DNA from: Pseudaquabacterium pictum
GTDB lineage: Bacteria > Pseudomonadota > Gammaproteobacteria > Burkholderiales > Burkholderiaceae_C
Assembly: GCF_005403045.1 (NCBI RefSeq)
Contig: NZ_BJCL01000014.1
Location: 1-64,000 of the forward strand
Length of the DNA stretch: 64,000 nucleotides
Direction: 5' to 3'
How positions within the stretch are numbered: the stretch's first letter is position 1; each line of letters starts with the position of its first letter. Shown here one piece after another: positions 16,501 through 38,790 of the stretch. A program made the position numbers and the translations under genes. The notes below the pieces were generated by a model, which did not search any database, was not told the origin of the DNA, and saw only the letters and a program-made list of their open reading frames with translations.

Positions 16501-17104
16501 GCTGGGGCACACCGAGCCCACCGCGGGTGTGGACATGGTGGTGTCACACCATCCCGATGAACTGCTGGGGGTCGAGCATGGCTGGGGTGCCTACACCCGG
16601 CCTGATGACTACCTGAGTGCCTTCCAGCGCTTCATCAACGACAACGTGAACCGCATCGCGGCCCTGCAGATCGTGCTGACCCGCCCGCGGGACCTGACTG
16701 CCGAGCACCTGCGCAGCCTGATGGTGGAGCTGGCCCAGCACCAGTTCACCGAGGCCCATGTGCGCACCGCCTGGGCCCAGGCCCGGCAGGAAGACGTGGC
16801 CGCCACCCTGATCGGCTACATCCGCCAGTTGGCGCTGGGCTCACCGCTGGTGCCCTTCAGCACCCGGGTCGACAAGGCGGTGGCCCGTCTATTGGCCAGC
16901 CGCGCCTGGAGCACGCCCCAGCGCAAGTGGCTGGATCGCATCGCCACCACGCTGAAGGACAAGGTGGTGGTCGACGAGGCCACCTTCAGCCAGGGCGCCT
17001 ACGTGGCCCACGGCGGCTTCCGCGCCATCGACACCGTGTTCAACGGTCAGGGGCGCGAAGTACTGGCCGAGCTGGAAGACGCCGTGTGGAGCGACGCTGC
17101 GTAG
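13586..17104 (+). CDS. hsdR: Type I restriction endonuclease, R (HsdR) subunit
   Basis: The 1172-aa subunit is responsible for ATP-driven DNA translocation and cleavage of unmethylated DNA. An N-terminal DUF4145-like region (SNFAFLERADPLMAQL...LLKLRQFGEVVAQHL) is followed by an Ala/Gln/Glu-rich coiled coil (about 155-235). The PD-(D/E)XK nuclease is DYLLF...GVVEAKK (D303, E317, K319). The superfamily 2 motor has Walker A ATGTGKT (476-482), DEAH (580-583), ALTATPAQHT and the motif VI region LGRATRLCP. Length and layout fit the EcoKI-like family. The start is uncertain: 13586 lacks a strong Shine-Dalgarno. All catalytic motifs are intact. Confidence 0.95.
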   Translation: MVGTAGSSQSNFAFLERADPLMAQLGISAERYCIADPNACLLKLRQFGEVVAQHLAAVHGLQASTDTKQADLLAEFRRRQLVDGEVISMLHMLRTQGNAGVHSPSIDARDAGSALRIARQVGIWFHRAFRSPGADFKPGPFIAPTNLSYIDVARRQADEVQRLQADLQAARDAAAAEQAQRLQAEAAAAAQTQERQLWEQLAQAEEAERKRLEAEFDRELKAILESPQAAAGKPAAAVSQAIQQATRLIDLDEAETRAIIDRQLRDAGWEVDSNTLRYARGTRPEAGRNLAIAEWPTASGPADYLLFCGMVAVGVVEAKKFSTDVSAVVGQAERYSLGLQALDDGAAPAPGDWDRQKLGAFPGWPALTATVTGATHYRVPFIFASNGRPFHRQFEQRSGVWFRDVRQVTHHARALADWYTPDGLLKLLAQDLPTAEQMLKAEPHGYLNLRDYQIAAVQAVESAIAAGQRACLVAMATGTGKTRTVIGLIYRLLKAKRFQRVLFLVDRSALGEQAQNAFKDARLEQNKRFTEIYDLKELADITPDSATRVHVATVQGMARRLFGGQPGDMPVDRYDCIIIDEAHRGYILDREMGEGELQFRDEADYISAYRRVLDQFDAFKVALTATPAQHTTQIFGLPVYTYTYQEAVVDGWLVDHLPPIRLRTLLSQNGIHFDSGETVTLLNTLGSEAEQVLPDEVDYDIDHFNRLVITEHFNQVVCGELARQLDPLAEEKTLVFCANDQHADLVVRLLTQALAAEHGELNDKTVLKITGRSDKPDQLIRLFKNEALPKVAVTVDLLTTGIDVPRISNLVFLRRVRSRILYEQMLGRATRLCPEIGKEHFRIFDAVDLYAALAPVNTMRPVVQQAATPLPQLMLELQDPAAAGTIVGENPRTRQPVTHADEVRAQLVVRLRNLLRRAQRLAPQRPVLQAALSELALLTGQDAQALAASLKDLPLASMQALVQAHGAQLAGLLGHTEPTAGVDMVVSHHPDELLGVEHGWGAYTRPDDYLSAFQRFINDNVNRIAALQIVLTRPRDLTAEHLRSLMVELAQHQFTEAHVRTAWAQARQEDVAATLIGYIRQLALGSPLVPFSTRVDKAVARLLASRAWSTPQRKWLDRIATTLKDKVVVDEATFSQGAYVAHGGFRAIDTVFNGQGREVLAELEDAVWSDAA

Positions 17105-17518: not shown

Positions 17519-18958
17519 ATGTCAACCCACAACATCGTCCAGAAACTCTGGTCGCTCTGCGATATTCTGCGGGATGACGGCATCACCTACCACCAGTACG
17601 TCACCGAGCTGACGCTGCTGCTGTTCCTGAAGATGGCCCAGGAGACGCAGACCGAGCACCGCCTGCCTGCGGGCTGGCGCTGGGCTGACCTGACGGCCCG
17701 CAATGGTGTGGACCAGCTGGACCACTACCGCCGCGGCCTGCTGGTGCTGGGTGGTGCGCCCGATCCGCTGGTGGCTGCCGTCTACCGCGACGCCGGCACC
17801 AGCATCAAGGAGCCGCGCCACCTGGCCCAGCTGGTGGCCGACATCGATGCACTCGACTGGTACTCGGCCCGCACCGACGGCCTGGGTGACCTGTACGAGG
17901 GCCTGCTGGAGAAGAATGCCAACGAGACCAAGAGCGGCGCCGGCCAGTACTTCACGCCCCGGCCGCTGATCCGCGCGATGGTGGAGGTGCTCAAGCCCCA
18001 GCCGGGCGAGGTGATCCAGGATCCGGCCGCCGGCACCGGCGGCTTTCTGATCGCCGCCGACCACTACATCAAGCAGCAGACCGACGACCTGTTCACCCTG
18101 ACGCTGGCGCAGCAGGAGTTCCAGCGCAAGCGCGCCTTCGTGGGCATGGAGCTGGTGCCCGATGCCCAGCGCCTGGCGCTGATGAACTGCATGCTGCACG
18201 ACATCGAAGGCACGGGCCAGGGGCCGGTGCGCGTGGGCAGCACCTTGTCAGCCGAAGGCACCGAACTGCGCGATGCCGACCTGATCCTGGCCAACCCGCC
18301 CTTCGGCACCAAGAAGGGTGGCGGCCTGCCCACGCGCGACGACTTCAGCTACCCCACCAGCAACAAGCAGTTCGCCTTTCTGCAGCACATCTACCGCAGC
18401 CTGAAGCCGGGTGGCCGGGCCGGCGTGGTGCTGCCCGACAACGTGCTGTTCGAGGCCAACGTGGGCAAGCAGATCCGCGCTGACTTGATGGACAAGTGCC
18501 GGCTACACACCATCCTGCGCCTGCCCACCGGAATCTTCTACGCCCAGGGCGTGAAGACCAATGTGCTGTTCTTCGAGCGTGGCCGCACGCCGACCGGCAA
18601 TACCGATGCAGTGTGGGTATACGACCTGCGGGCCAACATGCCGCAGTTCGGCAAGCGCACGCCGTTCACGCTGGACCATCTGCGGCCGTTCATCGATGCC
18701 TATGGCGAACGGGCTGACGGCACATCGCCCCGCGTGGACGGAGGCGAGGCGGGCCGCTTCCGCCGCTTCAGCCGCGACGAGATCGCGCAGCGCGACGACA
18801 GTCTGGACCTGAGCTGGCTGAAGGACGACAACGCTGAAGACGCCGCCGACCTGCCCGAGCCCGCCGCGCTGGCCCAGGCTGCGATGCAGGAGCTGGAGCA
18901 CGCCATGACCGAGCTGGATGCCATCCTGGCCGAGCTGGGCGCGGAGGTCGACGGGTGA
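17519..18958 (+). CDS. hsdM: Type I DNA methyltransferase, M (HsdM) subunit
   Basis: The 479-aa protein has an N-terminal HsdM helical domain (LWSLCDILRDDGITYHQYVTELTLLLFLKM) and an N6-adenine methylase domain. The SAM-binding motif I is DPAAGTGGFLI (from D168), and the catalytic motif IV is NPPF (259-262). With HsdS it forms the modification enzyme that protects host DNA. It starts 3 bases after the small protein's stop, and its TGA overlaps the hsdS start. Length and motifs are complete. Confidence 0.96.
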   Translation: MSTHNIVQKLWSLCDILRDDGITYHQYVTELTLLLFLKMAQETQTEHRLPAGWRWADLTARNGVDQLDHYRRGLLVLGGAPDPLVAAVYRDAGTSIKEPRHLAQLVADIDALDWYSARTDGLGDLYEGLLEKNANETKSGAGQYFTPRPLIRAMVEVLKPQPGEVIQDPAAGTGGFLIAADHYIKQQTDDLFTLTLAQQEFQRKRAFVGMELVPDAQRLALMNCMLHDIEGTGQGPVRVGSTLSAEGTELRDADLILANPPFGTKKGGGLPTRDDFSYPTSNKQFAFLQHIYRSLKPGGRAGVVLPDNVLFEANVGKQIRADLMDKCRLHTILRLPTGIFYAQGVKTNVLFFERGRTPTGNTDAVWVYDLRANMPQFGKRTPFTLDHLRPFIDAYGERADGTSPRVDGGEAGRFRRFSRDEIAQRDDSLDLSWLKDDNAEDAADLPEPAALAQAAMQELEHAMTELDAILAELGAEVDG

Positions 18959-20277
18959 TGCCGGTGGGTTGGGCCGAGGTGCCGATCGGTGAAATCTGTG
19001 ATCTGAAGAACGGTCGTGCGTTCAAGCCCGCAGAGTGGCAAGGCGATGGTCTCCCAATCGTTCGGATTCAGAACCTGAACAAGCGCGATGCGCCGTACAA
19101 CTACTTTGCGGGTGAGGTGGGTGAGCGCAACCGCCTCCGAGGTGGGGAACTGCTGTTCGCCTGGTCAGGTACGCCCGGCACGTCGTTCGGTGCCCACATT
19201 TGGGCAGGCGGCGATGCCGTACTGAATCAGCACATCTTTCGCGTCGACTTCAACGACGCGCTATTCGACAAGCGCTTCCTAAAACATGCAATCAACCAGA
19301 CGGTTAACGACCTGATCGATATCGCTCATGGTGGGGTCGGGCTTCGGCATGTCACGAAAGGAAAATTCGAGGCAACCAAGATCGCCGTCGCGCCACTTGC
19401 AGAACAGCAGCGCATTGCCGACAAGCTCGACGCGATCCTCGCGCGAGTCGATGCCTGCCGCGACCGACTCGACCGCGTCGCGCCAATGTTGCAACGGTTT
19501 AGGCAGTCCGTCGTGAACGTCGCATGTGGCGGGGCTCTGGGCCTCGATCGTCAGAATTCTTCCGAGTCTGAGTGGGACGCCGCGATCCTTGGTGATTTGC
19601 TGGAAGGCAAGCCAAGGAACGGCTACTCGCCGAAGTCAGTCGACTACGTGACCGGAACGAGGACGCTCACCCTGTCCGCAACAACATCAGGCCGATTCAA
19701 ACCCGAGCACTTCAAGTACATAGATGAGGTGATACCTCCCGATTCGCACCTCTGGTTGTCGCCGGGAAACATCCTGATCCAGAGAGCGAACACCTTGGAA
19801 TACGTGGGTACAAGTGCGATTTACGACAGAGCACCCGCCAGCTTCATTTATCCAGACCTGATGATGAAGTGCCGCGCGAATGCACGGGTGTTACCTGAGT
19901 TCTTGCTCTTGCTGCTGAAGTCAGACCCGGTTCGCCAATGGTTTCGGAGTAGAGCAACAGGGACCGCGGGAAACATGCCGAAGATCAATCAGCAGACGGT
20001 TATGTACGCGCCAGTTCGGGTTCCACCCCTGAAAGTACAGAGGGAAATAACTGATCAAGTTCGTCGCCTGATGACGCTCGCCGACGAGCTAGAGCGTCGA
20101 ACGACGCTCGCGGCGACCTCGGTAGGCAACCTCGTACCGAGCGCGCTCGCGAAGGCATTTCGCGGCGAACTCGTTCCCCATGATGCGGACGACGAGTCGG
20201 CCGCCGTGATGGTCGCCCGGCTGGCCGTTCAGGGATCACCACAGCGGGCCAGCAAGCGCGGGAGACGCACCGCATGA
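18958..20277 (+). CDS. hsdS: Type I specificity (HsdS) subunit
   Basis: The 439-aa protein has two target-recognition domains. The first runs EICDLKNGRAFKPAEWQG...IQNLNKRDAPYNY to about residue 140; the second begins near residue 200 (AAILGDLLEGKPRNGYSP) and ends GTAGNMPKINQQTV. Each is followed by a conserved helix (PLAEQQRIADKLDAILARVD and PLKVQREITDQVRRLMTLAD) that measures the spacing between half sites. GC content drops within the recognition domains, as usual for these exchanged modules. The ATG shares bases with the hsdM stop; a GTG at 18955 is an alternative start. Confidence 0.93.
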   Translation: MPVGWAEVPIGEICDLKNGRAFKPAEWQGDGLPIVRIQNLNKRDAPYNYFAGEVGERNRLRGGELLFAWSGTPGTSFGAHIWAGGDAVLNQHIFRVDFNDALFDKRFLKHAINQTVNDLIDIAHGGVGLRHVTKGKFEATKIAVAPLAEQQRIADKLDAILARVDACRDRLDRVAPMLQRFRQSVVNVACGGALGLDRQNSSESEWDAAILGDLLEGKPRNGYSPKSVDYVTGTRTLTLSATTSGRFKPEHFKYIDEVIPPDSHLWLSPGNILIQRANTLEYVGTSAIYDRAPASFIYPDLMMKCRANARVLPEFLLLLLKSDPVRQWFRSRATGTAGNMPKINQQTVMYAPVRVPPLKVQREITDQVRRLMTLADELERRTTLAATSVGNLVPSALAKAFRGELVPHDADDESAAVMVARLAVQGSPQRASKRGRRTA

Positions 20278-21272
20278 GCGAGATCAAGCTGTACCGCCTG
20301 GTCGATGGCAAGGCCACCGAGCTCGAAGGCAGCGCGTCCGACCTCGAGAAGCCACTGCAGAAGCTGATCGAGGCCAACCTGGAGCAGATGCTGGGCATCC
20401 GCTTGCTGGCCAGTGAGTACAGCACCGGCAAGGTCCACGGCGGGCGCATCGACACGCTGGGCCTGGACGAGGACAACTGCCCCGTGATCGTGGAATACAA
20501 GCGCGCGGTGGGCGAGAGCGTCATCAACCAGGGCCTGTACTACCTGGACTGGCTGCTCGACCACAAGGGTGAGTTCCGGCTGCTGGCGCAGGAGCGCCTG
20601 GGCGCCGAAGCAGCGCAAGCGATCGAGTGGAAGGCGCCCCGGGTGGTGTGCATCGCCGGTGCCTTCACCAAGTTCGACGGCCATGCGGTGCGGCAGATGC
20701 ACCACAGCATCGACCTCATCCGCTACCGGCAGTTCGGCGCAGACCTGTTGCTGCTGGAGCAGGTGCATACCGCGCCGCAGACAGGCGGATCGCCGGCCGG
20801 CAAGAAGCCGGGCAAGGCCGAAGGCGATCCGACCGATGCCGAGAGCCAGACGGCCGCCGGGGCAGTCCCAGCAGCGGCCACGGACAAGCCCGTGAGCTGG
20901 GACAAGCCTTATGCCGAGGTGGTGTCTGGCATGGCGCCCGCCCTGCAAGACCTGCTCAGCTCTTTGGAGGACTACATGTTTGCGCTGGGCGACGACGTGC
21001 AGCGCAAGGAGCTGAAGCTGTACGCCGCCTACAAGCGCTTGAAGAACTTCGCGACCGTGGTGCCGCAGAAGAGCCGGCTGCTGCTGTACCTGCACCTGGA
21101 CCCTGCCGCGGTGCGGCCGCTGTTGACCAACGCGCGAGACGTCAGCCAGCAGGGCCATTGGGGCACGGGCGATCTGGAAGTGGCGTTGACAACGCAGGAG
21201 CAGCTGGACGCCGCCAAGACGCTGATCGTGATGGCCTACGAGGGAAGAGCGCCCGTTCCGGCAGCGACATGA
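20274..21272 (+). CDS. NucS/DUF91-like nuclease with C-terminal DUF5655 domain
   Basis: The 332-aa protein starts in a 4-base ATGA overlap with hsdS, so it belongs to the restriction operon. The N-terminal half carries a PD-(D/E)XK-type core: GGRIDTLGLDEDNCPVIVEYK with D60, E74 and K76, preceded by KLIEANLEQMLGI. An Ala/Gly/Pro linker (about 165-205) leads to a C-terminal DUF5655 domain (KLYAAYKRLKNFATVVPQKSRLLLYLHLD). Similar proteins accompany type I systems and defence islands. It probably cuts or binds DNA, but its target is unknown. A role in the Hsd system is inferred from the overlap. Confidence 0.75.
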   Translation: MSEIKLYRLVDGKATELEGSASDLEKPLQKLIEANLEQMLGIRLLASEYSTGKVHGGRIDTLGLDEDNCPVIVEYKRAVGESVINQGLYYLDWLLDHKGEFRLLAQERLGAEAAQAIEWKAPRVVCIAGAFTKFDGHAVRQMHHSIDLIRYRQFGADLLLLEQVHTAPQTGGSPAGKKPGKAEGDPTDAESQTAAGAVPAAATDKPVSWDKPYAEVVSGMAPALQDLLSSLEDYMFALGDDVQRKELKLYAAYKRLKNFATVVPQKSRLLLYLHLDPAAVRPLLTNARDVSQQGHWGTGDLEVALTTQEQLDAAKTLIVMAYEGRAPVPAAT

Positions 21273-21442: not shown

Positions 21443-23434
21443 ATGTCGGGGAGTCAGTTCGAGATGTGGAGCGCCGCGCTCCACTGGGGCGTCGGTGGGT
21501 TGCTTGCGGTGGCCGTGCTCTTCTTCATCATTCAGTTCGTCCTGCCCGGCGTTCGTGTGGGACGCCAGCTGAAGTCAGCCCGCGGTTCCATCGATTCGAT
21601 CAAGGCACGAGGCCAGGTGCTGGATCTCGATGAGGTGCTGCAGTCGGCCATGGGCAGCCCGCAGCTGCAGCACTGCTGGACCGAATACCGCGACACCCTG
21701 CACCCGCAGAAGCGGGCTGACGAGTTCGGCAGCCTGCAGGTGGTGCGGTGGCGTGCCACTGCACTGGCCCAGGGCTTCTTCACCGAACAGTCGCTGGTGG
21801 ATGGGCCGCTGCGCACCGAGTTCTACAAGCACCTGCCCGGCATGCTGACCGGGCTGGGCATCATCGGTACGTTCACCGGACTGATACTTGGCCTGCAAGG
21901 CTTTCAGGTGACCGACGATGCCAACCAGGTGCGGCAAAGCCTGGCCACGCTGATCCAAAGCGTGGGCGGCGCCTTCCTGGTGTCGGGCGCGGCGATCCTG
22001 CTGGCGATGCTGGTGACCCTGGTCGAGAAGGCGTTGATCAACAAGCTCTACACCGCCACTGAAAGCCTGAGCGGCGTGATCGACAGCCTCTTTGACGCCG
22101 GCGCCGGTGAAGAGTATCTGCAACGTCTGGTCGAAGCGTCTGAGACCTCGGCCACGCAGGCGCTGCAAATGAAGGAGAGCCTGGTCACCGACCTGAAGCA
22201 GGTGTTGACCGAGCTGACGCAGCAGCAGATTGCCACGATGACGGCCACCAGCCAGCAGCTGGGTCAGAGCATCGCAACTAGCCTGACCGAAGGGTTGAAA
22301 GAGCCGCTGCAGCGCATCTCCAACGCGGTGGAGACCGTGGGCGGCAACCAGGGTGATGCGGTGAACCGCATGCTGACTGACGTGCTCAGTGCGTTTTCGT
22401 CAAAGATGGAAGGCATGTTTGGCGGTCAGCTGAGCGGTATGAACGAGATGCTGCAGCAGACGGCCCGCACCATCGAGACCGCATCGCAGCGCTTTGACCA
22501 GCTGGCCGGCCGCATCGAACAGGCGGGGACCGGCGCCACGGATGCCATGGCCAAGCGGATGGAAGAGCTGATGGCGCAGATGCGCGACCGCCAGGCCGAG
22601 AGTGACGCGCAGATGGCCGCCTTCATCAACAAGCTGCAGCAGGATGTATCCAAGGGCCAGAGTGACGCTGCCGAGCTGACGCTGCAGATGATGCGGGAGC
22701 TGTCAGAGTCCACGGGTGCGCTGGTCCAGGGCTTGCAGCAGCAGAGCCATGCGGCACAGCAGGAGCACAGCACCCGCCAGGCAGAACTGGCCGAACGCGC
22801 TCACAAGCTGCTGGCCACGCACGGTGAACAAGTGGAAGACCTGATCGACGCGGTGGACGAAGCTGCCAAGGCCATGCGAGAGTCGGTCGACAAGTTGCAG
22901 CTCAGCACACAGTCCAATGTCGACAAGATGGCGCAGGGTGCGGAGCGCCTGCACACCACGTCCACCCGCCTGGCTGACAACCTGGACAAGCTCCGCCAGG
23001 TGTCAGACGGTCTGACCGATTCGGCCGATGGACTGGTGCGATCTGCAGTGACAGTCGATGCCGCGCTCAAGAGCACCGAGCGGGTGTTGCAGGACCAGCG
23101 TACGGTGCGCGACGCTATCGCCGCCATGGTGAACGACCTGCGCTCCACGGTGGAAGCAGCCAAGCGTGAGGCTGGCTTGACCCAGCAGCTGGTGTCGAGC
23201 CTGGGCACAGCCAGCGAGCGGCTGCTGGATGCCCAGCGCAACGCCGAGGGATACCTGGAAAAGGTGAGCGAGGTCCTCGGCACGGCACATGCCGAATTCG
23301 CCAGCAACGTGCAAACCACCTTGCGCAGCAGCAATGCGGCGTTCCACCAGGAGCTGGCCCAGGCGGTGAACTACCTGAAGGGTGCGATCCAGGACCTGGG
23401 CGACGTGCTCGACAACGTACCGGCCCGCGGCTGA
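21443..23434 (+). CDS. zorA: Zorya anti-phage system protein ZorA (MotA/TolQ/ExbB-like stator)
   Basis: The 663-aa membrane protein is chosen to start at ATG 21443 behind GAGAGAGACAGG. An N-terminal transmembrane helix (GGLLAVAVLFFIIQFVL) is followed by the MotA/ExbB-type pair LPGMLTGLGIIGTFTGLILGL and VGGAFLVSGAAILLAMLVTL. The rest, from about residue 230, is a long Gln/Ala/Glu-rich helical tail, the feature that distinguishes ZorA from flagellar MotA. In studied Zorya systems, five ZorA and two ZorB form a proton-driven inner-membrane motor whose cytoplasmic tail transmits the invasion signal. It heads the complete zorABCD set, 170 bases after the previous gene. Confidence 0.95.
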   Translation: MSGSQFEMWSAALHWGVGGLLAVAVLFFIIQFVLPGVRVGRQLKSARGSIDSIKARGQVLDLDEVLQSAMGSPQLQHCWTEYRDTLHPQKRADEFGSLQVVRWRATALAQGFFTEQSLVDGPLRTEFYKHLPGMLTGLGIIGTFTGLILGLQGFQVTDDANQVRQSLATLIQSVGGAFLVSGAAILLAMLVTLVEKALINKLYTATESLSGVIDSLFDAGAGEEYLQRLVEASETSATQALQMKESLVTDLKQVLTELTQQQIATMTATSQQLGQSIATSLTEGLKEPLQRISNAVETVGGNQGDAVNRMLTDVLSAFSSKMEGMFGGQLSGMNEMLQQTARTIETASQRFDQLAGRIEQAGTGATDAMAKRMEELMAQMRDRQAESDAQMAAFINKLQQDVSKGQSDAAELTLQMMRELSESTGALVQGLQQQSHAAQQEHSTRQAELAERAHKLLATHGEQVEDLIDAVDEAAKAMRESVDKLQLSTQSNVDKMAQGAERLHTTSTRLADNLDKLRQVSDGLTDSADGLVRSAVTVDAALKSTERVLQDQRTVRDAIAAMVNDLRSTVEAAKREAGLTQQLVSSLGTASERLLDAQRNAEGYLEKVSEVLGTAHAEFASNVQTTLRSSNAAFHQELAQAVNYLKGAIQDLGDVLDNVPARG

Positions 23435-23450
23435 CCCGGAGGGCCACAGC

Positions 23451-24200
23451 ATGTTGAGCCTGCAACAACCGGCGCGCCGGCGTTCACGCGAGGAAGGCGA
23501 GAAGCCGTTCTGGATCTCGTTCTCTGACCTGATGTCGGCCCTGATGGTGCTGTTTCTGGTCGCCATGAGCGTGGCCCTGCTGGCGGTGACCAAGAAGCAG
23601 TCCGAGGAGGAGCGGGAGGAGAAGGACCGCGGCGAAGCCATCGCCCGGCTGATGGGCGAGATCCGGCAGTCCGCCATCGCTGACGGTGTGCGGGTGACCG
23701 ACCGCACCATCGACTTCGGGCCCCGTGGACAGTTCGAGCGCGAAGGGCAGAACACGTTGTCGCCGCAGCAGCGTGAGCTGGTGCTGAAGTTCACCCCGCA
23801 GCTGTTGGCCAAGCTGCGCAGCCCCGATGGCGCCAAGTGGTTCAAGCGTGCGGTGGTGGAGGGCTACGCCAGCCGCACCGGCACCTACCTGTTCAACCTG
23901 AACCTGAGCCTGGAGCGCAGTGAGCGTGTGCTGTGCGAGCTGCTACGTGAGCCCCGGCCGGGCGAAGGCTTGTCGCTGGACGACCGAAAGCTGATCGCCA
24001 CCCGCTTTTTCGTGGGTGGTGCGTCGTTCAACTCGCTGCGCGACACGCTGGACGCGAGCCGGCGCATCGAATTCAAGCTCGAGTTCAAGACGCGGCAAGA
24101 CCTGAAGGACGAGGCTGCCAATCCCTCGCCGCCGATTGACGATGAGGCCCTGGTCAAGGCCCTGGATCCGAGAGAGCGATGCCCGATCCAAGATCGTTGA
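23451..24200 (+). CDS. zorB: Zorya protein ZorB (MotB/OmpA-like, peptidoglycan-binding)
   Basis: The 249-aa protein has a short basic N-terminus, one transmembrane helix (FWISFSDLMSALMVLFLVAMSVALL) and a C-terminal OmpA/MotB-like domain (VVEGYASRTGTYLFNLNLSLERSERV) that should anchor to peptidoglycan. D26 in the motif FSDLM corresponds to the ion-translocating aspartate of MotB-type stators and is intact. A strong GGAGG Shine-Dalgarno sits 8 bases before the ATG. It is 16 bases from zorA and overlaps zorC by 22 bases, which indicates tight co-translation. Confidence 0.95.
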   Translation: MLSLQQPARRRSREEGEKPFWISFSDLMSALMVLFLVAMSVALLAVTKKQSEEEREEKDRGEAIARLMGEIRQSAIADGVRVTDRTIDFGPRGQFEREGQNTLSPQQRELVLKFTPQLLAKLRSPDGAKWFKRAVVEGYASRTGTYLFNLNLSLERSERVLCELLREPRPGEGLSLDDRKLIATRFFVGGASFNSLRDTLDASRRIEFKLEFKTRQDLKDEAANPSPPIDDEALVKALDPRERCPIQDR

Positions 24201-26014
24201 ACCTGCTGGCTGGGCGACTGCGTGCGGCACTGGTGCTGAACCCAGGCACCAAGGACCTGGGCTGGGCACCGAACACGCAGCCGATGCGGCATGCGCTGAA
24301 GGAGGTGCAGCAGACCTTTGGCGGTGACGATGACCGTGCCCGCCCGCCCCGGGATGACATGGTGGTGGCGGTGCGCAAGTTCATGCGGAAGCGACAGGTC
24401 GAGTCATTCACGCAGTTGAAGTACGTGTGCTACGGCGTCACGGTGTCCGTGGACGACGATGGCGACCGGCTGATCGACCAGTCGGCCCTGCTGCAGAGGC
24501 TGCTGGACCTGGTCAAGGAGCGGCAGGGGCAGGCCAAACAGTTCCGCCGCTGCTACCAGGGGCTGTTGGCTGCGTACTTCGGCTTCGAGCGCGAAGGCGA
24601 TGGGCTTGCCGATGCCAGGCGCAACTGGCTGGGCCTGCGTGGCTACCTGGACGAGCACCTGCTGCCTGTCGCCAAGGCAGCCAGCAGCCGCGGCCGATCA
24701 CCTGGCTGGCTGGAGGTATTGCTGGCCCATCGCAACCTGCTGGGCGACAGCCCTTGCAACCGCTACGCCAAGAGTCTGCGTGCCGGTGACCGGTCAGAGC
24801 TGGAAGCTGTGTGCGCGGGGCTGGACATCGCACCTACATCCTGGGTGTGGCACGAGGCGGTGATGGCCTACGTCAACGAGGTGATCCGGGTGGACGATCC
24901 GCCCTTCCAGGCGGAGATGCCGCAGCTGCTGGCCGTGGTGCATGGTGATCAGCATGGCCACCAACTGCCCAGCATGGTGGCGCGGGAGGCGATGGCACTG
25001 ACCGTCGCACGTTATGCCCGCTGCCGCGACAAGCCTGAGCACGCGGGATTGCGAGACGCTTGCCTGCACCGCATCGGCAACCCGTGGCTGGAGCGCACCG
25101 CGTGGGACGCATCGGTCAAGAGCGAGACCGCCCGGCAGATGGTGGAGAGCTGGCTGAAGCGGCGGCTCATCGCAGACTTTTTCAGCCTGCTGGCGCAGGA
25201 CGGCTCTGCCGATGTCAGGCGATTGCAATACTGGCTGAAGTGGGAGCCACTGATCAGCGACATGTGGTTCGTGCTGGGTACAGACGCCATGAGCAACCGC
25301 AGCGCTCTGTTCGTGGATGTTCGCCGCCGCATGGAGGGGCGGCTGCGCGCACTCACTGGCTACCCCGAACGCGCCAACAACGCGTTTGTCATGTGCATTG
25401 GCCACCTGCTGGTCATCGAGTTCGGCAAGACCGGGAATGCCTGCTATGTGTTCGATCGGCAGGACTTCAAGACCGATCTGGATCAGGAGAGTCTTGGAAT
25501 TGCTCAGCTCAAGCAGACCCTGCAAGCGGAGCGCCTCACGCACGCCGGTCCGTGGGAGTCGAAGTTCGAGATCGAACTACAGCGGCGGTTGGGTCGACCA
25601 GCGCCTGTACACCAGCGACCGCCGGCTGCTGAGTTGCCAGTTCGAACGTCAGTGCCACGCACACAAACACCAACGCAATCCTTGGTGGAGTCAGATCCGT
25701 TGAAGCGAGCAAGCCTGCTCAAGGGGATCTGGCCTGAATTCACGCCACCGAAAGACGACACCCCTGAACCCCGACGCGTGAAATCTGACGGCCGTGTGTT
25801 GCCTCGGGAACCACTGAACCGCGTGCGCCTCGAGAAGCTTGAATGGCTATGCCAGGATGCTGGGCTGGCGATGGAGGACAACCGAAAGAAGGGTGGTGCT
25901 CTGTGGGTGCGCATGCTGAAGCCTGAGGACCATCCTGGACTTCGGGTGATGCTCGAACGCTGGAGTTTCAGGTATGTCGCAGGCAAGGGCTACTACCGCG
26001 AGGCGGACGACTGA
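24179..26014 (+). CDS. zorC: Zorya type I protein ZorC (EH-signature)
   Basis: The 611-aa soluble protein is largely helical, with no membrane segment, and is identified mainly by gene order between ZorB and ZorD. Recognisable stretches include WLERTAWDASVKSETARQMVESWLKRRLIADFF and GNACYVFDRQDFK, consistent with the EH_Signature family found in ZorC. In type I Zorya, ZorC is a cytosolic DNA-binding protein that works with ZorD after the membrane motor senses phage injection. A basic, low-complexity linker around residues 475-530 precedes a small C-terminal segment. It overlaps zorB by 22 bases and ends 1 base before the zorD start. Confidence 0.88.
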   Translation: MPDPRSLNLLAGRLRAALVLNPGTKDLGWAPNTQPMRHALKEVQQTFGGDDDRARPPRDDMVVAVRKFMRKRQVESFTQLKYVCYGVTVSVDDDGDRLIDQSALLQRLLDLVKERQGQAKQFRRCYQGLLAAYFGFEREGDGLADARRNWLGLRGYLDEHLLPVAKAASSRGRSPGWLEVLLAHRNLLGDSPCNRYAKSLRAGDRSELEAVCAGLDIAPTSWVWHEAVMAYVNEVIRVDDPPFQAEMPQLLAVVHGDQHGHQLPSMVAREAMALTVARYARCRDKPEHAGLRDACLHRIGNPWLERTAWDASVKSETARQMVESWLKRRLIADFFSLLAQDGSADVRRLQYWLKWEPLISDMWFVLGTDAMSNRSALFVDVRRRMEGRLRALTGYPERANNAFVMCIGHLLVIEFGKTGNACYVFDRQDFKTDLDQESLGIAQLKQTLQAERLTHAGPWESKFEIELQRRLGRPAPVHQRPPAAELPVRTSVPRTQTPTQSLVESDPLKRASLLKGIWPEFTPPKDDTPEPRRVKSDGRVLPREPLNRVRLEKLEWLCQDAGLAMEDNRKKGGALWVRMLKPEDHPGLRVMLERWSFRYVAGKGYYREADD

Positions 26015-26015
26015 C

Positions 26016-29000
26016 ATGTTCGGGAAGATGTTCAAGCGCGATACGGCACCAGCACAGGCAGTAGCGGTGGCGCCGAGCGCCGCCGTACAGGTCACAGACG
26101 CTGGACTGACCTACCCGTCACCGGCGCCAACCGCAGCGGATTGGCTGGCGATGCCGCATGCCTTCGGGGTGTCTGCCGATTTGGGCGCCAGGCTGGCCCA
26201 GCTCTACACCGAGGGCTTCGGCGAGCGGCGAGATGACGCGTTCCACCTGCCATGGTCCGATGTGCATGCGGTTCTGCGTGATCCAGCTTTGGCAAGCCAG
26301 CGCCTGGCCCTGCTGATGCCACCCGACACCGCTGCGCGCCCACGCATTCAATCGCGCGGCGCCGTCGGCGATGCCGAGTTTGTTCTGCAACTGGATGGCT
26401 GGGCGGATGCCAAGGGCAAGCCAGCACAACCCACGCCCAAGCTGGTGGGTGCGTCCCTGCAGGTTGGCGACCGGTTCGAACTCCTGCCCGAAACGGTGTG
26501 GCAGCTGCTGCAGCACCTGCGTGCGTTTCATGCCGTGCCGGCGGCGGAACGCAGCCGCAACTTCAAGGAGACCAGCTTCGCCCGCATCCGCCGCCTGGCC
26601 ACTGATGCGGGCTGCGAGGTGTCGGACTATGTGGCGCGCACCATCATCCTGACGCCAGAACGTCTGCGCCTGGCCATGCGCCGCAGCGAGGCTGCCGACC
26701 ACAACACGGTCGAATTGATTCCCGGCTTCGATGAAGCGCCCGTCCGCTGGTTGGAGCGCTTCGACGTGCTCCCGCTGCAGGACAGCTATGACGTGCCCGA
26801 CGGTGCGTCACTGGTGCGCGTGTTGATCGACCCGGAGGTCAAACGCGTGCTGGCCGAAATCAAGGCCATGCCTGGCCGCCGGGTGTCAGGGCCGCGTGCC
26901 GAGGCGTTCGTGCGCAATCCGTTCGCCGTGTTGGGTGAAGGTGCGGCAAAGGCGGTGGACGCCGAGCAGATCGAGACGGCACGGGTGGCGGCCGGCATCG
27001 CCTTTGAACGCTTCACTCCGCATGCCGAACATGGGCCGCAGGGTGAGGTTCAGCGCGTCGGCCTGTTGGTGCAGGGCCTGGGTGCGGAAGACGCTGCAGC
27101 CGAGACCGTCTGGTTTGACGTGCCGACGGCCTTGCAGACCTTCATTGAGAGATTGCACCTGCGGCTCGAGCAGGGTGCCCAGTGCTGCTTCTGGGAAGGG
27201 CATGAGCTGGAGATCGAGGGCGACACAGCTGAACACCTGGGGCAATTGGAGGGCTGGCACCGCGCCTGGGTGCAGCCTCAGCTGTGGACTGCCGGGGAAC
27301 TGTTCGACCTGGACAACTACTCGCCGCGTGTGGAGGGCATCGGCGTCGAGCGGCCATTCATCGTCCCGGTGGTGGCCAAGCCGCCGGGCGCCGGCGGCTG
27401 GTTCGAAGGCGAGGCCGCTGCCGGTGTGCGGGTGCAAGATCCGAAGACCGGTGCCGTCACCCTGGTGCCGATCCGCTTCGACGAGATTCCTTCGCTTCAG
27501 GCCGCCGTGGATGCGGCCGCGGCTGCCGGTGACAAGGCCGTGCCGCTGCCGGGGCTGGCACGCCCGGTGCCGATCGACGATGCCCGGCATGCACTCGCTG
27601 CACTGGCCCAGGCCGGGGCGCAGATCCGCGCCAAGACCTTTGCGCCCGAGAAGCCTGCGGTTGGCAAGCAGGCCAAGCAGCGCCTGGTGCTCAAGCGCAA
27701 CCTTGAAGAGATCGACTACAGCGAGGAACGCACCGACGCGCTGCTGCCGCCCGATGGCCACCAGATGGTGGTGCCGGCCGGCCTGCGACCGGAGGTGCAG
27801 TTGAAGCCGTATCAGCAGGAAGGCGTGGCCTGGCTGCAGCACCTCTGGTCACTGTCGCCCGACCAGTGCCGCGGCACGGTGTTGGCCGACGACATGGGCC
27901 TGGGCAAGACGCTGCAGCTGCTGACTTTCATGGCCAGTTGCTTCGATGCGGACCCGGCGCTGCCCCCGGCATTGGTGGTGGCCCCCGTCGCCCTGCTGGA
28001 GAACTGGCGCAACGAGCTGGAGAAGTTTTTCCTGCCGGGCACGATGCCGATGCTGACGCTGTATGGCGATGCGCTGAAGCCGCTGCGGGTGCCCAGGCAC
28101 CAGCTGGATGCCGAGCTGAAAGCTCAGGGCGTGACCCGGCTGCTGGTGAAGAACTGGGTGGGTGGAGCACGCCTGGTGCTGACCACGTATGAGACCATGC
28201 GTGACCTGGAATTCACCATGGCCTCGCAGCCCTGGTCGATCATGGTCTGCGACGAAGCCCAGAAGATCAAGACACCGGCGGCGCTGGTGACACGCTCGGC
28301 CAAGAAGCAGAAGGTGCGGTTCCGGGTGGCTTGTACCGGCACACCAGTGGAGAACACGCTGGCCGACCTGTGGTGCCTGTTCGACTTTGTGCAGCCGGGC
28401 ATGCTGGGTGCGCTGAACCACTTCTCGCGCACCTACCGACAGCCGATCGAGGCCAAGACCGACGAGCAACGGGCCAAGGTGGAAGAGCTGCGCACGGTGA
28501 TCAAGCCGCAGATCCTGCACCGCAAGAAGACCGACGTGGCCAAGGACTTGCCGCAGCCGGTGGAGGACCAGGACTGCAAGCAGCTGCCGATGTCGGCGTT
28601 CCAGCTGGGGCTGTACCGCGCCGCCCTGAACCAGCTGCGGGAGCAGCGTGACACCAACCCGTCGGCACAGCTGCAGACGCTGATGGCGATGCGTCAGATC
28701 TGCTCCGACCCGCACGGGCACCACCACGGTGACACCCGCACCATCGACGTGACCCGCCTGGTGAACGAGTCGCCCAAGATGGGCTGGATGATCAACCGGA
28801 TGAAGGACCTGGCAGCCAGGGTGGACGACGCGCACAAGGTGATCGTGTTCTGCGAGTTCCGCGAGCTGCAGCTGTTGTTGCAGCGGGTGATCGCCACGTT
28901 CTTCGGCTTTGCGCCGCACATCATCAACGGCGACACCTCGGCCGACCCCCGGGCGCTGGTGAACCGCCAGAAGCTGATCGATGATTTCCAGCGCAGGCCC

Positions 29001-29306
29001 GGATTTTGCGCCATCGTGCTGTCGCCGCTGGCGGTGGGCTTTGGCGTGAACATCCAGGCTGCAAACCACGTCATCCACTTCACCCGCACCTGGAACCCGG
29101 CGAAGGAAGATCAGGCGACCGCGCGTGCCTACCGCATCGGGCAGACCCGCACCGTGAACATCTACTACCCCAGCGTGGTGAGCGACGAGGTGCCCAGCTT
29201 CGACTTAAAGCTGGATGCATTGCTCGCCCGCAAGCGCAGCCTGGCGTCGGACATGTTGAACGGCTGTAGCGATCTGAAGGTGGCGGACTTCGCAGACTTT
29301 GCGTGA
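26016..29306 (+). CDS. zorD: Zorya type I protein ZorD (SNF2-family helicase/nuclease)
   Basis: The 1096-aa protein ends with a full Swi2/Snf2 ATPase: Walker A DDMGLGKT (about 625-632), DEAQKIKT (746-749 DEAQ), CTGTPVENTLADLW and the helicase C-terminal lobe ending FTRTWNPAKEDQATARAYRIGQT. The ~600-residue N-terminal part is the ZorD-specific region. ZorD is known to translocate on DNA and degrade phage DNA with ZorC. The ATG at 26016 lies 1 base after the zorC stop; an in-frame upstream start would overlap zorC. All motor motifs are intact, so the system is expected to be functional. Confidence 0.95.
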   Translation: MFGKMFKRDTAPAQAVAVAPSAAVQVTDAGLTYPSPAPTAADWLAMPHAFGVSADLGARLAQLYTEGFGERRDDAFHLPWSDVHAVLRDPALASQRLALLMPPDTAARPRIQSRGAVGDAEFVLQLDGWADAKGKPAQPTPKLVGASLQVGDRFELLPETVWQLLQHLRAFHAVPAAERSRNFKETSFARIRRLATDAGCEVSDYVARTIILTPERLRLAMRRSEAADHNTVELIPGFDEAPVRWLERFDVLPLQDSYDVPDGASLVRVLIDPEVKRVLAEIKAMPGRRVSGPRAEAFVRNPFAVLGEGAAKAVDAEQIETARVAAGIAFERFTPHAEHGPQGEVQRVGLLVQGLGAEDAAAETVWFDVPTALQTFIERLHLRLEQGAQCCFWEGHELEIEGDTAEHLGQLEGWHRAWVQPQLWTAGELFDLDNYSPRVEGIGVERPFIVPVVAKPPGAGGWFEGEAAAGVRVQDPKTGAVTLVPIRFDEIPSLQAAVDAAAAAGDKAVPLPGLARPVPIDDARHALAALAQAGAQIRAKTFAPEKPAVGKQAKQRLVLKRNLEEIDYSEERTDALLPPDGHQMVVPAGLRPEVQLKPYQQEGVAWLQHLWSLSPDQCRGTVLADDMGLGKTLQLLTFMASCFDADPALPPALVVAPVALLENWRNELEKFFLPGTMPMLTLYGDALKPLRVPRHQLDAELKAQGVTRLLVKNWVGGARLVLTTYETMRDLEFTMASQPWSIMVCDEAQKIKTPAALVTRSAKKQKVRFRVACTGTPVENTLADLWCLFDFVQPGMLGALNHFSRTYRQPIEAKTDEQRAKVEELRTVIKPQILHRKKTDVAKDLPQPVEDQDCKQLPMSAFQLGLYRAALNQLREQRDTNPSAQLQTLMAMRQICSDPHGHHHGDTRTIDVTRLVNESPKMGWMINRMKDLAARVDDAHKVIVFCEFRELQLLLQRVIATFFGFAPHIINGDTSADPRALVNRQKLIDDFQRRPGFCAIVLSPLAVGFGVNIQAANHVIHFTRTWNPAKEDQATARAYRIGQTRTVNIYYPSVVSDEVPSFDLKLDALLARKRSLASDMLNGCSDLKVADFADFA

Positions 29307-29448
29307 GTAGGGCCCGGCGACCGGCGCCGCCGCCGCGCTGCACAGGCTCATTCCTTGAGCCATGGCCGACCTAGCATTGCGTGACAGCCAATCACCGGAA
29401 CGCATGCCATCGACTGGGCGGCGAGCATCACAACAGGGAGAACAGCAC

Positions 29449-30756
29449 TTGAGCCAGAAGATCATCGTGATGGCCGACGAGACCATCGTCTGCCCGCACT
29501 GCGCCCATGAGTTTCCACTGCAGGAGGGCATCACCCGCCAGACCATCGATCGGCATGCCGACGAGTTCGAGGCGGTGCTGCGCGCCCGGGGTACCGAACT
29601 CGAAGAACGGATGCGCGACGAAGCCCAGCGCTCGGCCTTGCAGAAGGTGGCCGGCGACGTGGCGCGCATGCAGGAACAGCTGTCGATGGCCAAGAAGGCC
29701 GAGCGCGAGGCGCAGGCGGGCCTGGAGCAGGTGCGTCAGGAAACCCGTGCCAAGGCCCTGGCCGAGGCGGACCAGGAGCGCAAGGCACTGCTGGAGGACC
29801 TGGCGCGAAAGGACGAGGCGATCAGGTCCTTCCGTGACCAGGAGATCGAACTGCGCCGCCAGCGCCAAGCGCTGGAAGAGCAGCAGCGCGGCCTGGAGCT
29901 GGACCTGCAGCGCCGGCTGGACGAGGAGCGGGTGAAGATCACCGACGCGATCTCGCAGCGGGAATCGGAGCGCTTCTCGATGGTGGAGGCCGAGTTGCGC
30001 AAAAAGATCGAGGACGCCCAGCGCGCCAATGAAGACCTGCGCCGCAAGCTGGAGCAGGGCTCCCAGCAGCTGCAGGGCGAGGTGCTGGAGCTGGAGGTGG
30101 AGCAATCTTTGACCACCAGCTTCTTCCACGACCTGATCGAAGAGGTGAAGAAGGGCCAGCGTGGCGCCGACGTGATCCAGACCGTGCGCACCCCGGCGGG
30201 CCAGGTGGCGGGCAAGATCATCTGGGAGGCCAAGCGCGCCGAGAACTGGTCAGACAAGTGGCTGCAGAAGCTGAAGGACGACCAGCAGGAAGCCCAGGCT
30301 GACCTGGCGGTGCTGGTGACCACGGCCATGCCCAAAGGCATCACCGACCCGTTCGTGCGCATCGGCGACGTGTGGGTGGTGTCACCCCAGGTGCTGCGGC
30401 CGATGGCCGAGACCCTGCGGGTGATCCTGCTGGAATCCCACAAGTTGCGGGTGGCCAGCTCTGGCCAGGCCGAGAAGGTGGAGCAGCTGTACCACTACCT
30501 GTCCAGCCCGGGGTTCTCGCAGCGGGTGCGCACCATGCTGGACAGCTTCAACGCGATGCAGTCCGACCTGAACAGCGAGAAACGCGCGATGACCAAGATC
30601 TGGGCCAAGCGCCAGGCCCAGATCGACCGGGTGACCAAGAGCATGTTGACCGTGGTGGGTGAACTGCAGGCGATCTCGCAGAACGCGCTGCCGGAACTCG
30701 ATGGCATCGAGGCCCTGGCACTGACCTCCAGCACCACCGAGGGAGACGAGGAATGA
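29449..30756 (+). CDS. DUF2130-domain protein (putative nuclease with coiled coil)
   Basis: The 435-aa protein most likely starts at TTG 29449, 9 bases after AGGGAGAA; ATG 29470 is the alternative. It begins with a CxxC pair (VCPHCAHEF), then a long charged coiled coil (about 45-225), then the DUF2130 domain with GADVIQTVRT...GKIIWEAKRAENWSDKW (E260, K262). That E-x-K strand resembles a PD-(D/E)XK nuclease core. It is 142 bases after zorD and overlaps the ASCH gene by 4 bases. It may be an additional defence module or an accessory to Zorya; neither can be proven from sequence. Confidence 0.7.
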   Translation: MSQKIIVMADETIVCPHCAHEFPLQEGITRQTIDRHADEFEAVLRARGTELEERMRDEAQRSALQKVAGDVARMQEQLSMAKKAEREAQAGLEQVRQETRAKALAEADQERKALLEDLARKDEAIRSFRDQEIELRRQRQALEEQQRGLELDLQRRLDEERVKITDAISQRESERFSMVEAELRKKIEDAQRANEDLRRKLEQGSQQLQGEVLELEVEQSLTTSFFHDLIEEVKKGQRGADVIQTVRTPAGQVAGKIIWEAKRAENWSDKWLQKLKDDQQEAQADLAVLVTTAMPKGITDPFVRIGDVWVVSPQVLRPMAETLRVILLESHKLRVASSGQAEKVEQLYHYLSSPGFSQRVRTMLDSFNAMQSDLNSEKRAMTKIWAKRQAQIDRVTKSMLTVVGELQAISQNALPELDGIEALALTSSTTEGDEE

Positions 30757-31157
30757 GCAGCTACGCCGGGCTGAGCAAGGGCCTGATCATCAAGGCGCCG
30801 TTCATCGACTGGATCATGGAGGGGCGCAAGACCTGGGAGCTGCGATCGACCCACACACAGGTGCGCGGCCCGATTGCGCTGATCCAAAAGGGCACGGGCT
30901 CCGTGGTGGCGGTGGCCAGGCTGGTGGACTCCAAGGGGCCGCTGAGCGCGGCCGACATGGCGGCCAACCTCCAGCACCACGCGGTGGCACCGGATCGGCT
31001 GGCGATGCCGGACCTGCAGAAGTACCGGTTTGCCTGGGTGCTCGGCGATGTGAAGCGGCTGGCCCGGCCGGTGTCGTACACCCACCGGAATGGCGCCGTG
31101 ATCTGGGTTGCGCTGGACCTCGCAGTGGCTGGGAGTGTTCTCGGCGCGGCTGGGTAA
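30753..31157 (+). CDS. ASCH-domain protein (PUA-like, predicted RNA-binding)
   Basis: The 134-aa protein is essentially one ASCH domain: GLIIKAPFIDWIMEGRKTWELRS, then RGPIALIQKG and VVAVARLVDSKGPL. The GxKxxExR core is complete (GRKTWELR). ASCH proteins bind RNA or modified nucleotides, and some are nucleoside hydrolases. It starts in an ATGA overlap with the DUF2130 gene, so the two are translationally coupled and probably act together. Confidence 0.82.
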   Translation: MSSYAGLSKGLIIKAPFIDWIMEGRKTWELRSTHTQVRGPIALIQKGTGSVVAVARLVDSKGPLSAADMAANLQHHAVAPDRLAMPDLQKYRFAWVLGDVKRLARPVSYTHRNGAVIWVALDLAVAGSVLGAAG

Positions 31158-31909
31158 GCAGCAGCGGTGCACCGAATATCTCGAATTTTGCGAATTCGCG
31201 CCGGTGCATGAGAATCCCCGGGCTCGCCGAGCAGGGCGAGCCCCAGGCACTTTATCGGCGTTCAGACGTTCGGGTGCCGTGGGTCGGGCCAAGGCCCGAA
31301 TGCACCAGAAGGAACATACCCCAGGTGCACCGGTGAACGGCGTGGATTTCCACAGTGCTGCGGCCGGGGTATGACGTGAACCACGGTGGGCCGAACCCCA
31401 CACACCGTGACCAGCGGAACAGCGCAGCTGATCTGGGGATTGATGCCAATACGGATGCCAGACATCTGGTTGATCAAGGTCTGCCCTAGCCTAGGCTTGT
31501 ACACCCTGGGTTAGGGGAACGTTTGACCTTTTCCAGCCGGATGGCCTGAAATACATCAAGCCCGCTTCGCGGGCTTTGTTGCATTCTTCGCGACGTGGGT
31601 GCTCAGGACAGACTGAAACATGAGGGCGAGATTCGACTGTCTCACCGAAATCCACAGCATTGGCTGATGCACTCTCGCGAAAAGTGCCCGTTGCATTTTG
31701 TCTTCAGATGTCACCCAATTGCACCAAGCACGACATTCAAGGCGGACCAGATGGGAAATCATCGCGCAGGGCGACAGCAACAGCTGCAGAGTCACAAAGA
31801 CTCTGAAGGATACGAGCGCGCGGTCTCAACGCCGCTTCGTGCAATTACATACCGTGACACTGCGCATGCTGGCCCGGCAAGCATTTTCCGTTCTGCGAAC
31901 CGCCAACCG
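31158..31909. other. Gene-poor stretch where island base composition changes
   Basis: No gene I can support. Several short frames on both strands (for example minus 31262-31504) overlap each other and lack ribosome sites. A terminator lies at 31558. Around 31.2 kb the sequence shifts from strongly GC-biased codon positions to a more balanced composition, marking a possible junction between two acquired segments. Confidence 0.5.
31558..31586 (+). terminator. Intrinsic terminator-like hairpin
   Basis: AAGCCCGC-TTC-GCGGGCTT (8-bp stem) at 31558-31576 is followed by TGTTGCATTC. It could end transcription from the Zorya/DUF2130-ASCH side, although it lies 400 bases after the ASCH stop. Confidence 0.6.
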
Positions 31910-33268
31910 ATGGTGTCGCTCGCAACCTTCACCAGTCGAATCCGGCGTTTGGTCGAAAGGCATGAGCTGTCGGACGCCACCATTAATGAATCCTTGAATC
32001 TGAGTGCCGATGACTTCAGGCGCAAGTACGCCACCCGACGCACGTTGGTTGAAGTAGACGGCCAGCCCATCGATCTGATGTCCCACTATGCGGCCAAGGC
32101 AACTGAAGCGGCCATCAGCTACCGAAACTTTTGGCAGCGTGTTCGTGGCTTGGCCAAGAAGGGACAAATCTGCAGCAGTGCCTTGGCTGATTCATTGACT
32201 CTATCCGCGGCAACCTGGCGAAGCTGTTACGGTGGCGGACGTTCAACAGGGTTCGTCTACGAAGGCAATGCTCATCCTGATCAAGTAGGCAAGCGCTTCC
32301 ATAGCGTTGCAGCGCTCTTGCATTCTGTTGGCAGGTACGACGACCGCGCGCTCATCTGGTCACGCCTGAAAGCCGGGTGGACTTTGGATGATGCGCTGGC
32401 CATCCTGAACGCCACCCCCAGCCATCGCACAGGCACGATCTACCGCGTAACTCGACGCAGGACCGGCGCCGTATATGTAGGTCTCACAGTCACTTCCATC
32501 AAACAACGATGGGCCTTTCACGTGCGTCGGGCAACCGATGGATCGACGAGTAAGCTGCACGCTGCGTTCCGCGAAGATGGCGCCGATGGTTTCGATATTG
32601 ATGTGCTCGAGGACGGTATCAGGGACTTGGCTGTGCTGCAGGCCAGGGAGAGCTTCTGGGTAGACCGATTGGGCGCGTTGGGCCCCAATGGCCTCAATAC
32701 TGCGAAGCCAGGGGGCCTTGGGAGCCCAGGCGGGAAAATCATCGGCTACGGTGACGAAACCTTCAGATCCATCGAAGAAGCCGCTAGTGTGCTGAGCGAG
32801 CGGCTCGGTATTGCTCCACACGTTATTCGGACGAGACTTCAAAATGGACTCCCGCTACCGCAACCAGAGCAGGTCCGTCGACACAGCAAAAATCCTGACG
32901 CAGGCTCAAACCTTTTTCGCCGTTGGCTGGCCTTGCTCAAGCGCCACAGTAGCGGAGTTGCCGCTGAATGGAAGGCTGACTACGACAGGTTTAAGGCCGA
33001 CGTATCCCCAGTGCCTTCGGGCTTGGAACTCATCCGCAAGCGACCAAGTGAACCCTGGGGGCCAGGCAACGTCGAGTGGGTCACCGTTCAAACCAAGGTC
33101 GCGCGAACACACGGCAAAGCGATATCGGTCAACGGCGTGGAGTATCCGTCGTTAACTGCCATTGCGAAGGCCCATGGTATCGGGGTGAGCACATTCAAGA
33201 ATCGCATCTACAAACAAGGGATGTCTGCTGAGCAAGCTGTAGTCGCGCCGCTTGGCGGCACTTCGTAA
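31910..33268 (+). CDS. GIY-YIG nuclease with homing-endonuclease-like DNA-binding modules
   Basis: The 452-aa protein (start at ATG 31910 tentative; the frame is open further upstream) carries a GIY-YIG catalytic domain at about residues 175-260: GTIYRVTRRRTGAVYVGLT with Y178 and Y189, then SIKQRWAFHVRR (catalytic Arg) and ARESFWVDRL (Glu). The N-terminal half contains two related helical modules (INESLNLSADDFRRKY and LADSLTLSAATWRSCY). The C-terminus has GPGNVEWVTVQTKVARTHGK plus a NUMOD-like helix-turn-helix (YPSLTAIAKAHGIGVSTFKNRI). This layout resembles free-standing homing endonucleases. It is more AT-rich than the Zorya genes. Confidence 0.75.
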   Translation: MVSLATFTSRIRRLVERHELSDATINESLNLSADDFRRKYATRRTLVEVDGQPIDLMSHYAAKATEAAISYRNFWQRVRGLAKKGQICSSALADSLTLSAATWRSCYGGGRSTGFVYEGNAHPDQVGKRFHSVAALLHSVGRYDDRALIWSRLKAGWTLDDALAILNATPSHRTGTIYRVTRRRTGAVYVGLTVTSIKQRWAFHVRRATDGSTSKLHAAFREDGADGFDIDVLEDGIRDLAVLQARESFWVDRLGALGPNGLNTAKPGGLGSPGGKIIGYGDETFRSIEEAASVLSERLGIAPHVIRTRLQNGLPLPQPEQVRRHSKNPDAGSNLFRRWLALLKRHSSGVAAEWKADYDRFKADVSPVPSGLELIRKRPSEPWGPGNVEWVTVQTKVARTHGKAISVNGVEYPSLTAIAKAHGIGVSTFKNRIYKQGMSAEQAVVAPLGGTS

Positions 33269-38661: not shown

Positions 38662-38680
38662 TTGATCCACTGGTGATCCA
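38662..38680 (+). repeat. Candidate integrase arm-type site, right end
   Basis: TTGATCCACTGGTGATCCA matches the left-end motif at 8938-8956 with one change and in the same orientation. It lies 152 bases inside attR. Confidence 0.55.
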
Positions 38681-38733: not shown

Positions 38734-38790
38734 GGGCAAGACCGGCGTGGAGATGGAGGCGCTGACCGCCGTGCAGGTGGGCCTGCTGAC
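38734..38790 (+). pseudogene. Inverted 57-bp fragment of moaC
   Basis: This plus-strand segment reads [19 protein letters not shown], the MoaC sequence just upstream of the att repeat, and is the reverse complement of 38931-38987 in the intact gene with one mismatch. It then diverges into IEDKNR and a stop. It ends at the codon where the att repeat begins in moaC. It is too short to function and is a remnant of an earlier recombination event. Confidence 0.85.

Follow-up and report, generated by a model that had tools for sequence, protein, structure and literature searches.

A complete and most likely functional type I Zorya system carried on an integrative island in moaC of Pseudaquabacterium pictum

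The Zorya system considered here is encoded in Pseudaquabacterium pictum, within positions 1 to 64,000 of contig NZ_BJCL01000014.1 (assembly GCF_005403045.1); this whole stretch of 64,000 nt is called the window below. Its four genes, zorA, zorB, zorC and zorD, follow one another at 21443-29306 on the forward strand, each as a reading frame without an internal stop. It is very probable that they constitute a complete type I Zorya, most likely functional, and that this system is cargo of a site-specific integrative island docked in the 3' end of moaC, where it lies beside the restriction-modification genes hsdRMS. The locus is a well-bounded case of the carriage of a whole Zorya system. Both ends of the 30 kb island are defined, the site is unoccupied in relatives, one genome of the genus keeps a decayed remnant, and islands in two more genera have docked at the same place. 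The Zorya machine itself is not new, and the moaC dock is a modest addition, giving a defined locus at which to search these bacteria for defence islands.

The zor genes and their products

An earlier note on this DNA had proposed a complete type I zorABCD set, consecutive and overlapping or closely spaced, with the key motifs intact. A search with ZorA-D profiles, the check suggested there, bears the proposal out. The best PADLOC models for all four proteins, ZorC and ZorD included, are the type I models and fall in gene order: ZorA1 (3.1e-236), ZorB1 (3.7e-85, searched with a sequence one codon short), ZorC1 (7.4e-168) and ZorD1 (E=0, 1391 bits). All four frames are intact in the sequence as given. 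The first two genes are separated by 16 nt and the next two overlap by 22 nt, while the junction between zorC and zorD depends on the start chosen for zorD. A start at 25974, the one adopted in the earlier note, gives a 41-nt overlap and a protein of 1110 aa; the ATG at 26016 gives a 1-nt gap and 1096 aa. Position 1 of the best PADLOC ZorD profile aligns with residue 15 of the longer form, that is, with the start at 26016, which is therefore the more likely of the two, 25974 being possible.

Proteins of solved structure are also matched by sequence: ZorA by 8qyd_A (1.3e-91), ZorB by 8qyd_F (2.5e-44), ZorC by 8r68_A (3.2e-37) and ZorD by 8qy7_A (6.5e-222). The solved ZorC, 8r68_A, aligns with residues 24-456 only, and the match is not significant in the C-terminal part; 8qy7_A aligns over ZorD residues 57-1093. 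The PDB listing names the latter entry just a DEAD/DEAH box helicase, and it is taken here to be ZorD. In Pfam, ZorC matches EH_Signature with 145.5 bits against a cut-off of 27.5, and ZorD matches SNF2-rel_dom.

The motifs expected of the four proteins can be located. Numbered from the start at 26016, ZorD contains DDMGLGKT at 625, DEAQ at 746 and QATARAYRIGQ at 1033, which are presumably its Walker A motif, motif II and motif VI, respectively. A hydropathy plot of ZorA gives hydrophobic stretches at about 8-43, 131-156 and 167-203, followed by more than 400 residues; this long tail aligns to the tail of the solved ZorA and has the biased composition common in helices of this kind. The putative ion-site residue of ZorB, D26, falls inside the stretch that aligns with 8qyd_F and is invariant in all 15 aligned ZorB sequences, the window's counted; the type I residue is numbered D24 in the proteins of one published study (in the part of PMC11890865 that deals with it). 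All of the sequence features that mark a type I Zorya are thus present: the four proteins, D26, the EH signature, the Walker A and DEAx motifs, the gene order and the open frames.

By homology, five ZorA and two ZorB subunits would form an ion-driven motor in the inner membrane, tied to the peptidoglycan. Phage entry would disturb the wall and set the ZorAB motor turning, and the long ZorA tail would relay the signal to ZorC and ZorD, so that DNA would be attacked at the entry site. Passages of PMC11890865 describe ZorAB as a 5:2 ion-driven motor bound to peptidoglycan, which infection is thought to open, and a ZorA tail that recruits or activates the DNA-attacking ZorCD. Accounts of the outcome of type I Zorya action differ, with direct clearance of phage DNA put forward in sections of PMC12409362 and damage to the infected cell in sections of PMC11890865.

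The island and its dock in moaC

The island measures about 30.0 kb between 102-bp direct repeats (Table 1). The earlier note had placed the zor genes on an integrase-borne element without giving its ends; the integrase, the direct repeats of moaC, the empty site and the relic described below all agree with that view, and the ends can now be placed. The putatively active integrase of the island would catalyse recombination between the chromosomal moaC and a copy of the moaC 3' end carried on the element. Such a reaction would explain why the moaC frame is whole and why the old 3' end is found displaced after docking. A 19-bp repeat, TTGATCCA-NN-GGTGATCCA, lies inside both ends of the island, with NN being CG on the left and CT on the right. 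When up to 2 mismatches are allowed, this motif has two matches in the window and no third, and none in 100 shuffles. On the side away from moaC the island is flanked by a wzy-like gene. Docking in a tRNA gene was considered and rejected: ARAGORN detects no tRNA gene in the window, and of seven neighbour loci just one (L174, from genome G040) has a tRNA, a tRNA-Gly.

Table 1. Positions of the zor genes, other cargo and end structures of the island in the window
Feature	Position	Strand	Description
zorA	21443..23434	+	663 aa; MotA/TolQ-like motor subunit, long cytoplasmic tail; PADLOC ZorA1, 8qyd_A
zorB	23451..24200	+	249 aa; MotB-like subunit, ion-site D26; PADLOC ZorB1, 8qyd_F
zorC	24179..26014	+	611 aa; EH-signature protein; PADLOC ZorC1, Pfam EH_Signature, 8r68_A
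zorD	26016..29306	+	SNF2-type helicase effector (likelier start); PADLOC ZorD1, 8qy7_A, Walker A/DEAQ/motif VI
Left attachment repeat	8807..8908	.	Displaced moaC 3' end; 100/102 identical to 38832-38933
Left arm repeat	8938..8956	+	TTGATCCACGGGTGATCCA; probable integrase arm site
Tyrosine integrase	8977..10062	+	Left end; Pfam Phage_integrase 76.6 bits vs cut-off 27.1
hsdR	13586..17104	+	Type I restriction subunit; Pfam ResIII, EcoEI_R_C
hsdM	17519..18958	+	N6 adenine methylase; Pfam N6_Mtase 262 bits
hsdS	18955..20277	+	Specificity subunit; Pfam Methylase_S 84.1 bits
PDC-S18	20274..21272	+	Candidate defence gene; PADLOC 2.3e-130; Pfam DUF5655
DUF2130 gene	29362..30756	+	55 nt 3' of zorD; Pfam DUF2130 212.7 bits
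ASCH-domain gene	30753..31157	+	4-nt overlap with DUF2130 gene; Pfam ASCH 23.9 bits vs cut-off 21.2
GIY-YIG-like gene	31595..33268	+	Pfam GIY-YIG 21.7 bits, under cut-off 22.6; 43% relative at same end of G130 island
Right arm repeat	38662..38680	+	TTGATCCACTGGTGATCCA; same 19-bp motif as left arm, probable integrase arm site
Inverted moaC piece	38734..38801	+	Just inside right end; 64/68 identical to moaC coding strand
Right attachment repeat	38832..38933	.	Inside 3' end of intact moaC
moaC	38825..39313	-	Dock gene, reading frame kept; Pfam MoaC 191 bits

The empty site is found within the genus. Twenty same-genus relatives were searched and 19 loci tested, one genome with a stray match alone (G011) being excluded. 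The left flank runs unbroken into moaC in 12 of these 19. Another (genome G015; locus L008, wider locus L063) contains the attachment repeat twice, 2.2 kb apart, without zor genes. Between its repeats lie 120 bp of the left end of the window's island (92.5% identical), three separate pieces of hsdR (87-90%, at the DNA level) and a GIY-YIG-like piece, and the locus is a collapsed relic of an island like that of the window. The remaining six have other DNA between the flank and moaC, or lack the flank in the stretch examined.

Outside the genus, ZorD was sought at E<=1e-150 in a family sample of 299 genomes and found in 15, the window's counted; the order zorABCD is kept in all 14 others. In three of the 15, again counting the window's, zor genes and moaC occur together, and the other two (G130 and G271) belong to two other genera. 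In both, the island in moaC carries hsdRMS-zorABCD, which makes moaC a repeated docking site for Zorya islands. In the other 12 genomes moaC is on another contig, far off or, in one (G057), not found; distances were taken within contigs, so that breaks in draft assemblies may hide nearness. By a crude, after-the-fact binomial estimate, two or more of 14 Zorya loci would lie within 30 kb of moaC by chance with a probability of 0.015.

The island of G130 closely parallels that of the window, with the order wzy, moaC 3' fragment, integrase (63% identical), hsdRMS, zorABCD, GIY-YIG-like gene, inverted moaC piece and moaC. The arm-repeat motif is present at both of its ends, and its direct repeats are identical at 97 of 97 positions. 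It differs in having no match to the DUF2130 and ASCH genes and none to the window's genes between the integrase and hsdR. The island of G271 also lies in moaC and has hsdRMS-zorABCD-DUF2130-ASCH in the same order as the window, between repeats of 141 bp (137/141 identical). Unlike the window's, its integrase is distant (32%) and adjoins the intact moaC, and its cargo is oriented the opposite way relative to moaC. The inverted moaC pieces of the window and of G130 (L176, 10929-11027) each lie inside the right end of the island and are 94% and 96% identical, respectively, to the moaC of their own host, compared to 87% and 84% to that of the other.

In a survey for the moaC element among 399 genomes drawn evenly from the order, this genome alone was recovered at E<=1e-90 (G130 would pass this threshold but was absent from the draw), and in a family sample of 299 genomes four were recovered at E<=1e-60. 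Three relatives of the integrase at 47-50% identity have no moaC match within 1.5 kb. One could imagine that moaC serves this family as a dedicated dock at its 3' end, to which each of two integrase-borne elements, different in kind and opposite in polarity, brought hsdRMS-zorABCD. Recombination at this common dock may in that case let defence modules pass from one vehicle to another, with a possible part for the inverted piece of moaC that matches its host. This scenario is possible but doubtful.

Competing readings and neighbouring genes

Several observations weigh against the main reading of a complete Zorya on a site-specific island. Pfam gives no MotA-family match for ZorA, just a sub-threshold match to Apolipoprotein, and ZorB passes the MotB_plug cut-off narrowly (24.6 vs 24). 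The PADLOC DpdE profile PDLC02854 also matches ZorD, with 740 bits, and automatic DpdE calls beside zorABC may for this reason be ZorD. Conjugation or transfer genes were not found among the island proteins searched with PADLOC and Pfam, though no scan was aimed at them. The attachment repeats differ at 2 of 102 bases, so that excision in this strain may be old or impaired. Finally, no sigma-70-like promoter was found in 20000-31700, compared to a mean of 1.1 in shuffles, in a scan that says little in a GC-rich host.

The last of these points bears on the most serious rival, namely that the four open genes provide no working defence here, the island having been inherited with a Zorya that either is silent or targets phages the host no longer encounters. 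The relic in G015, which is all that this relative retains of such an island, is consistent with this idea, as is the Zorya of Vibrio cholerae, so far inactive in the hands of its authors (according to portions of PMC12409362). However, all four frames and the catalytic motifs examined are intact, and the promoter scan carries little weight for the reason given. A system that does not work is judged rather unlikely, and a functional one is favoured.

A second rival extends the unit of function to a single composite operon for defence, spanning hsdR through the ASCH gene (13586-31157), whose restriction-modification, Zorya, DUF2130 and ASCH products would cooperate. The neighbours of other Zorya loci are informative here. 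They were surveyed at the best 80 of 325 ZorB matches in genome contigs, 41 of the 80 having both zorC and zorD; the hsd queries were the window's own proteins, so that other restriction-modification families would be missed. The conserved order in G271 argues for a composite operon. Window-like hsd genes also precede zorA in L077 (the G130 place), L086, L088 (in pieces) and L090; in all of these but L088, hsdS immediately precedes zorA and has the same orientation. An ASCH gene lies directly 3' of zorD in L081 (apparently the G162 place) and L119, among the 41 loci with zorC and zorD, and DUF2130 beside zorD was matched outside the window in G271 only. Yet most of the Zorya loci have no match to these neighbours when the window's proteins are the queries, and the identities of hsd and zor are out of step (best pieces: ZorB 50% and hsdM 75% in L090; ZorB 63% and hsdM 66% in L086), which suggests that the modules were shuffled together more than once. 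The same two observations led to rejection of the idea that hsdRMS and zorABCD always form one travelling unit. Clustering of three open reading frames (ORFs) on each side gave no family common to most of the 41 loci; the largest clusters had 6, 5 and 5 rows (longest-frame ORFs, L049 left out). The association of restriction-modification, DUF2130 and ASCH genes with Zorya is recurrent and confined to a minority of loci, and a cooperating composite operon is very unlikely. At L088, from Candidatus Accumulibacter, where the hsd genes are upstream, the zorA match and the zorD match are each interrupted by 1.4-1.5 kb, which suggests insertions.

A chance adjacency of ZorD-like and ZorAB-like genes, or a last gene of the DpdE or housekeeping SNF2 type, can be dismissed almost entirely in spite of the DpdE match, because the ZorD1 profile covers residues 15-1108 of 1110 with 1391 bits, the presumed ZorD structure is the closest solved relative, and the gene order is conserved in every other ZorD genome of the family sample.

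Some ZorAB pairs occur without ZorCD. At 17 of the 80 ZorB loci at least 6 kb downstream contains no zorC or zorD match (L095, L100, L106, L136, L139, L141 and L147 among them), and 12 more loci are too short to judge. The ZorAB-only loci form two supported groups in an unrooted tree of Zorya I ZorB, the first with 21 rows (11 ZorAB-only and 10 short loci) and the second with 9, among them 6 ZorAB-only loci and 2 with a partial zorC match. Eight proteins from four ZorAB-only loci match the ZorA1 and ZorB1 models. ZorA is 324-350 aa long in the five first-group loci examined and 530 aa in L139. At L100 the neighbours, judged by eye, are lon, clpX and clpP. In L095, L106 and L107 of the first group a wzy-like ligase gene (33-35%), zorAB and moaC follow in order, L107 ending soon after moaC; a wzy-like ligase gene and moaC are also the flanking genes of the window's island. 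Such pairs may represent a defence motor recruited to a different role, or else the origin of that motor.

Regarding the remaining cargo, the DUF2130 protein contains a D-x19-EAK stretch, present also in its G271 homologue, that presumably resembles those of PD-(D/E)XK nucleases. In the right part of the island (31200-38700) the GC content falls to 53-59% in 2-kb windows, and this part encodes an AAA_16/STAND-like ATPase (35639-37756) and an unnamed 368-aa protein (33804-34910). Outside the island, nearby, are two tandem, nearly identical type IV pilin-like genes (5545-6090 and 6282-6815), named by eye.

Comparison with known systems

Docking in moaC, by integrases of two kinds, is the sole part of this account not found in print within the literature searched. 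A search joining Zorya and moaC returned no paper, and moaC was absent among the papers listed by a wider search on moaC and islands. The suggestion in the earlier note that the locus shows how Zorya moves is fair, but it is not new in kind, to judge from parts of PMC12409362 and PMC10121019. In E. coli, for example, Zorya-carrying elements favour a hotspot (from the relevant portion of PMC10121019).

Compared to the type I Zorya of solved structure (PDB 8qyd, 8r68, 8qy7 and 8vvn), the window has the same four proteins in the same order, and no departure in design was found. The window's system differs in being known from sequence only, and its ZorC match, over the limited span given above, is weak.

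The closest parallel in genetic setting is the island VPI-2 of V. cholerae, in which Zorya (VC1761-64) lies beside a type I restriction-modification cluster (VC1765-69) on an island with integrase genes (as described in parts of PMC11411939 and PMC12409362). In both cases a type I Zorya adjoins hsd genes on an integrase-bearing island. VPI-2 differs in having TgvAB inside the restriction-modification cluster and DdmDE beside it, as far as those parts describe it, whereas the window's island is docked in moaC and adds PDC-S18, DUF2130 and ASCH genes to its cargo.

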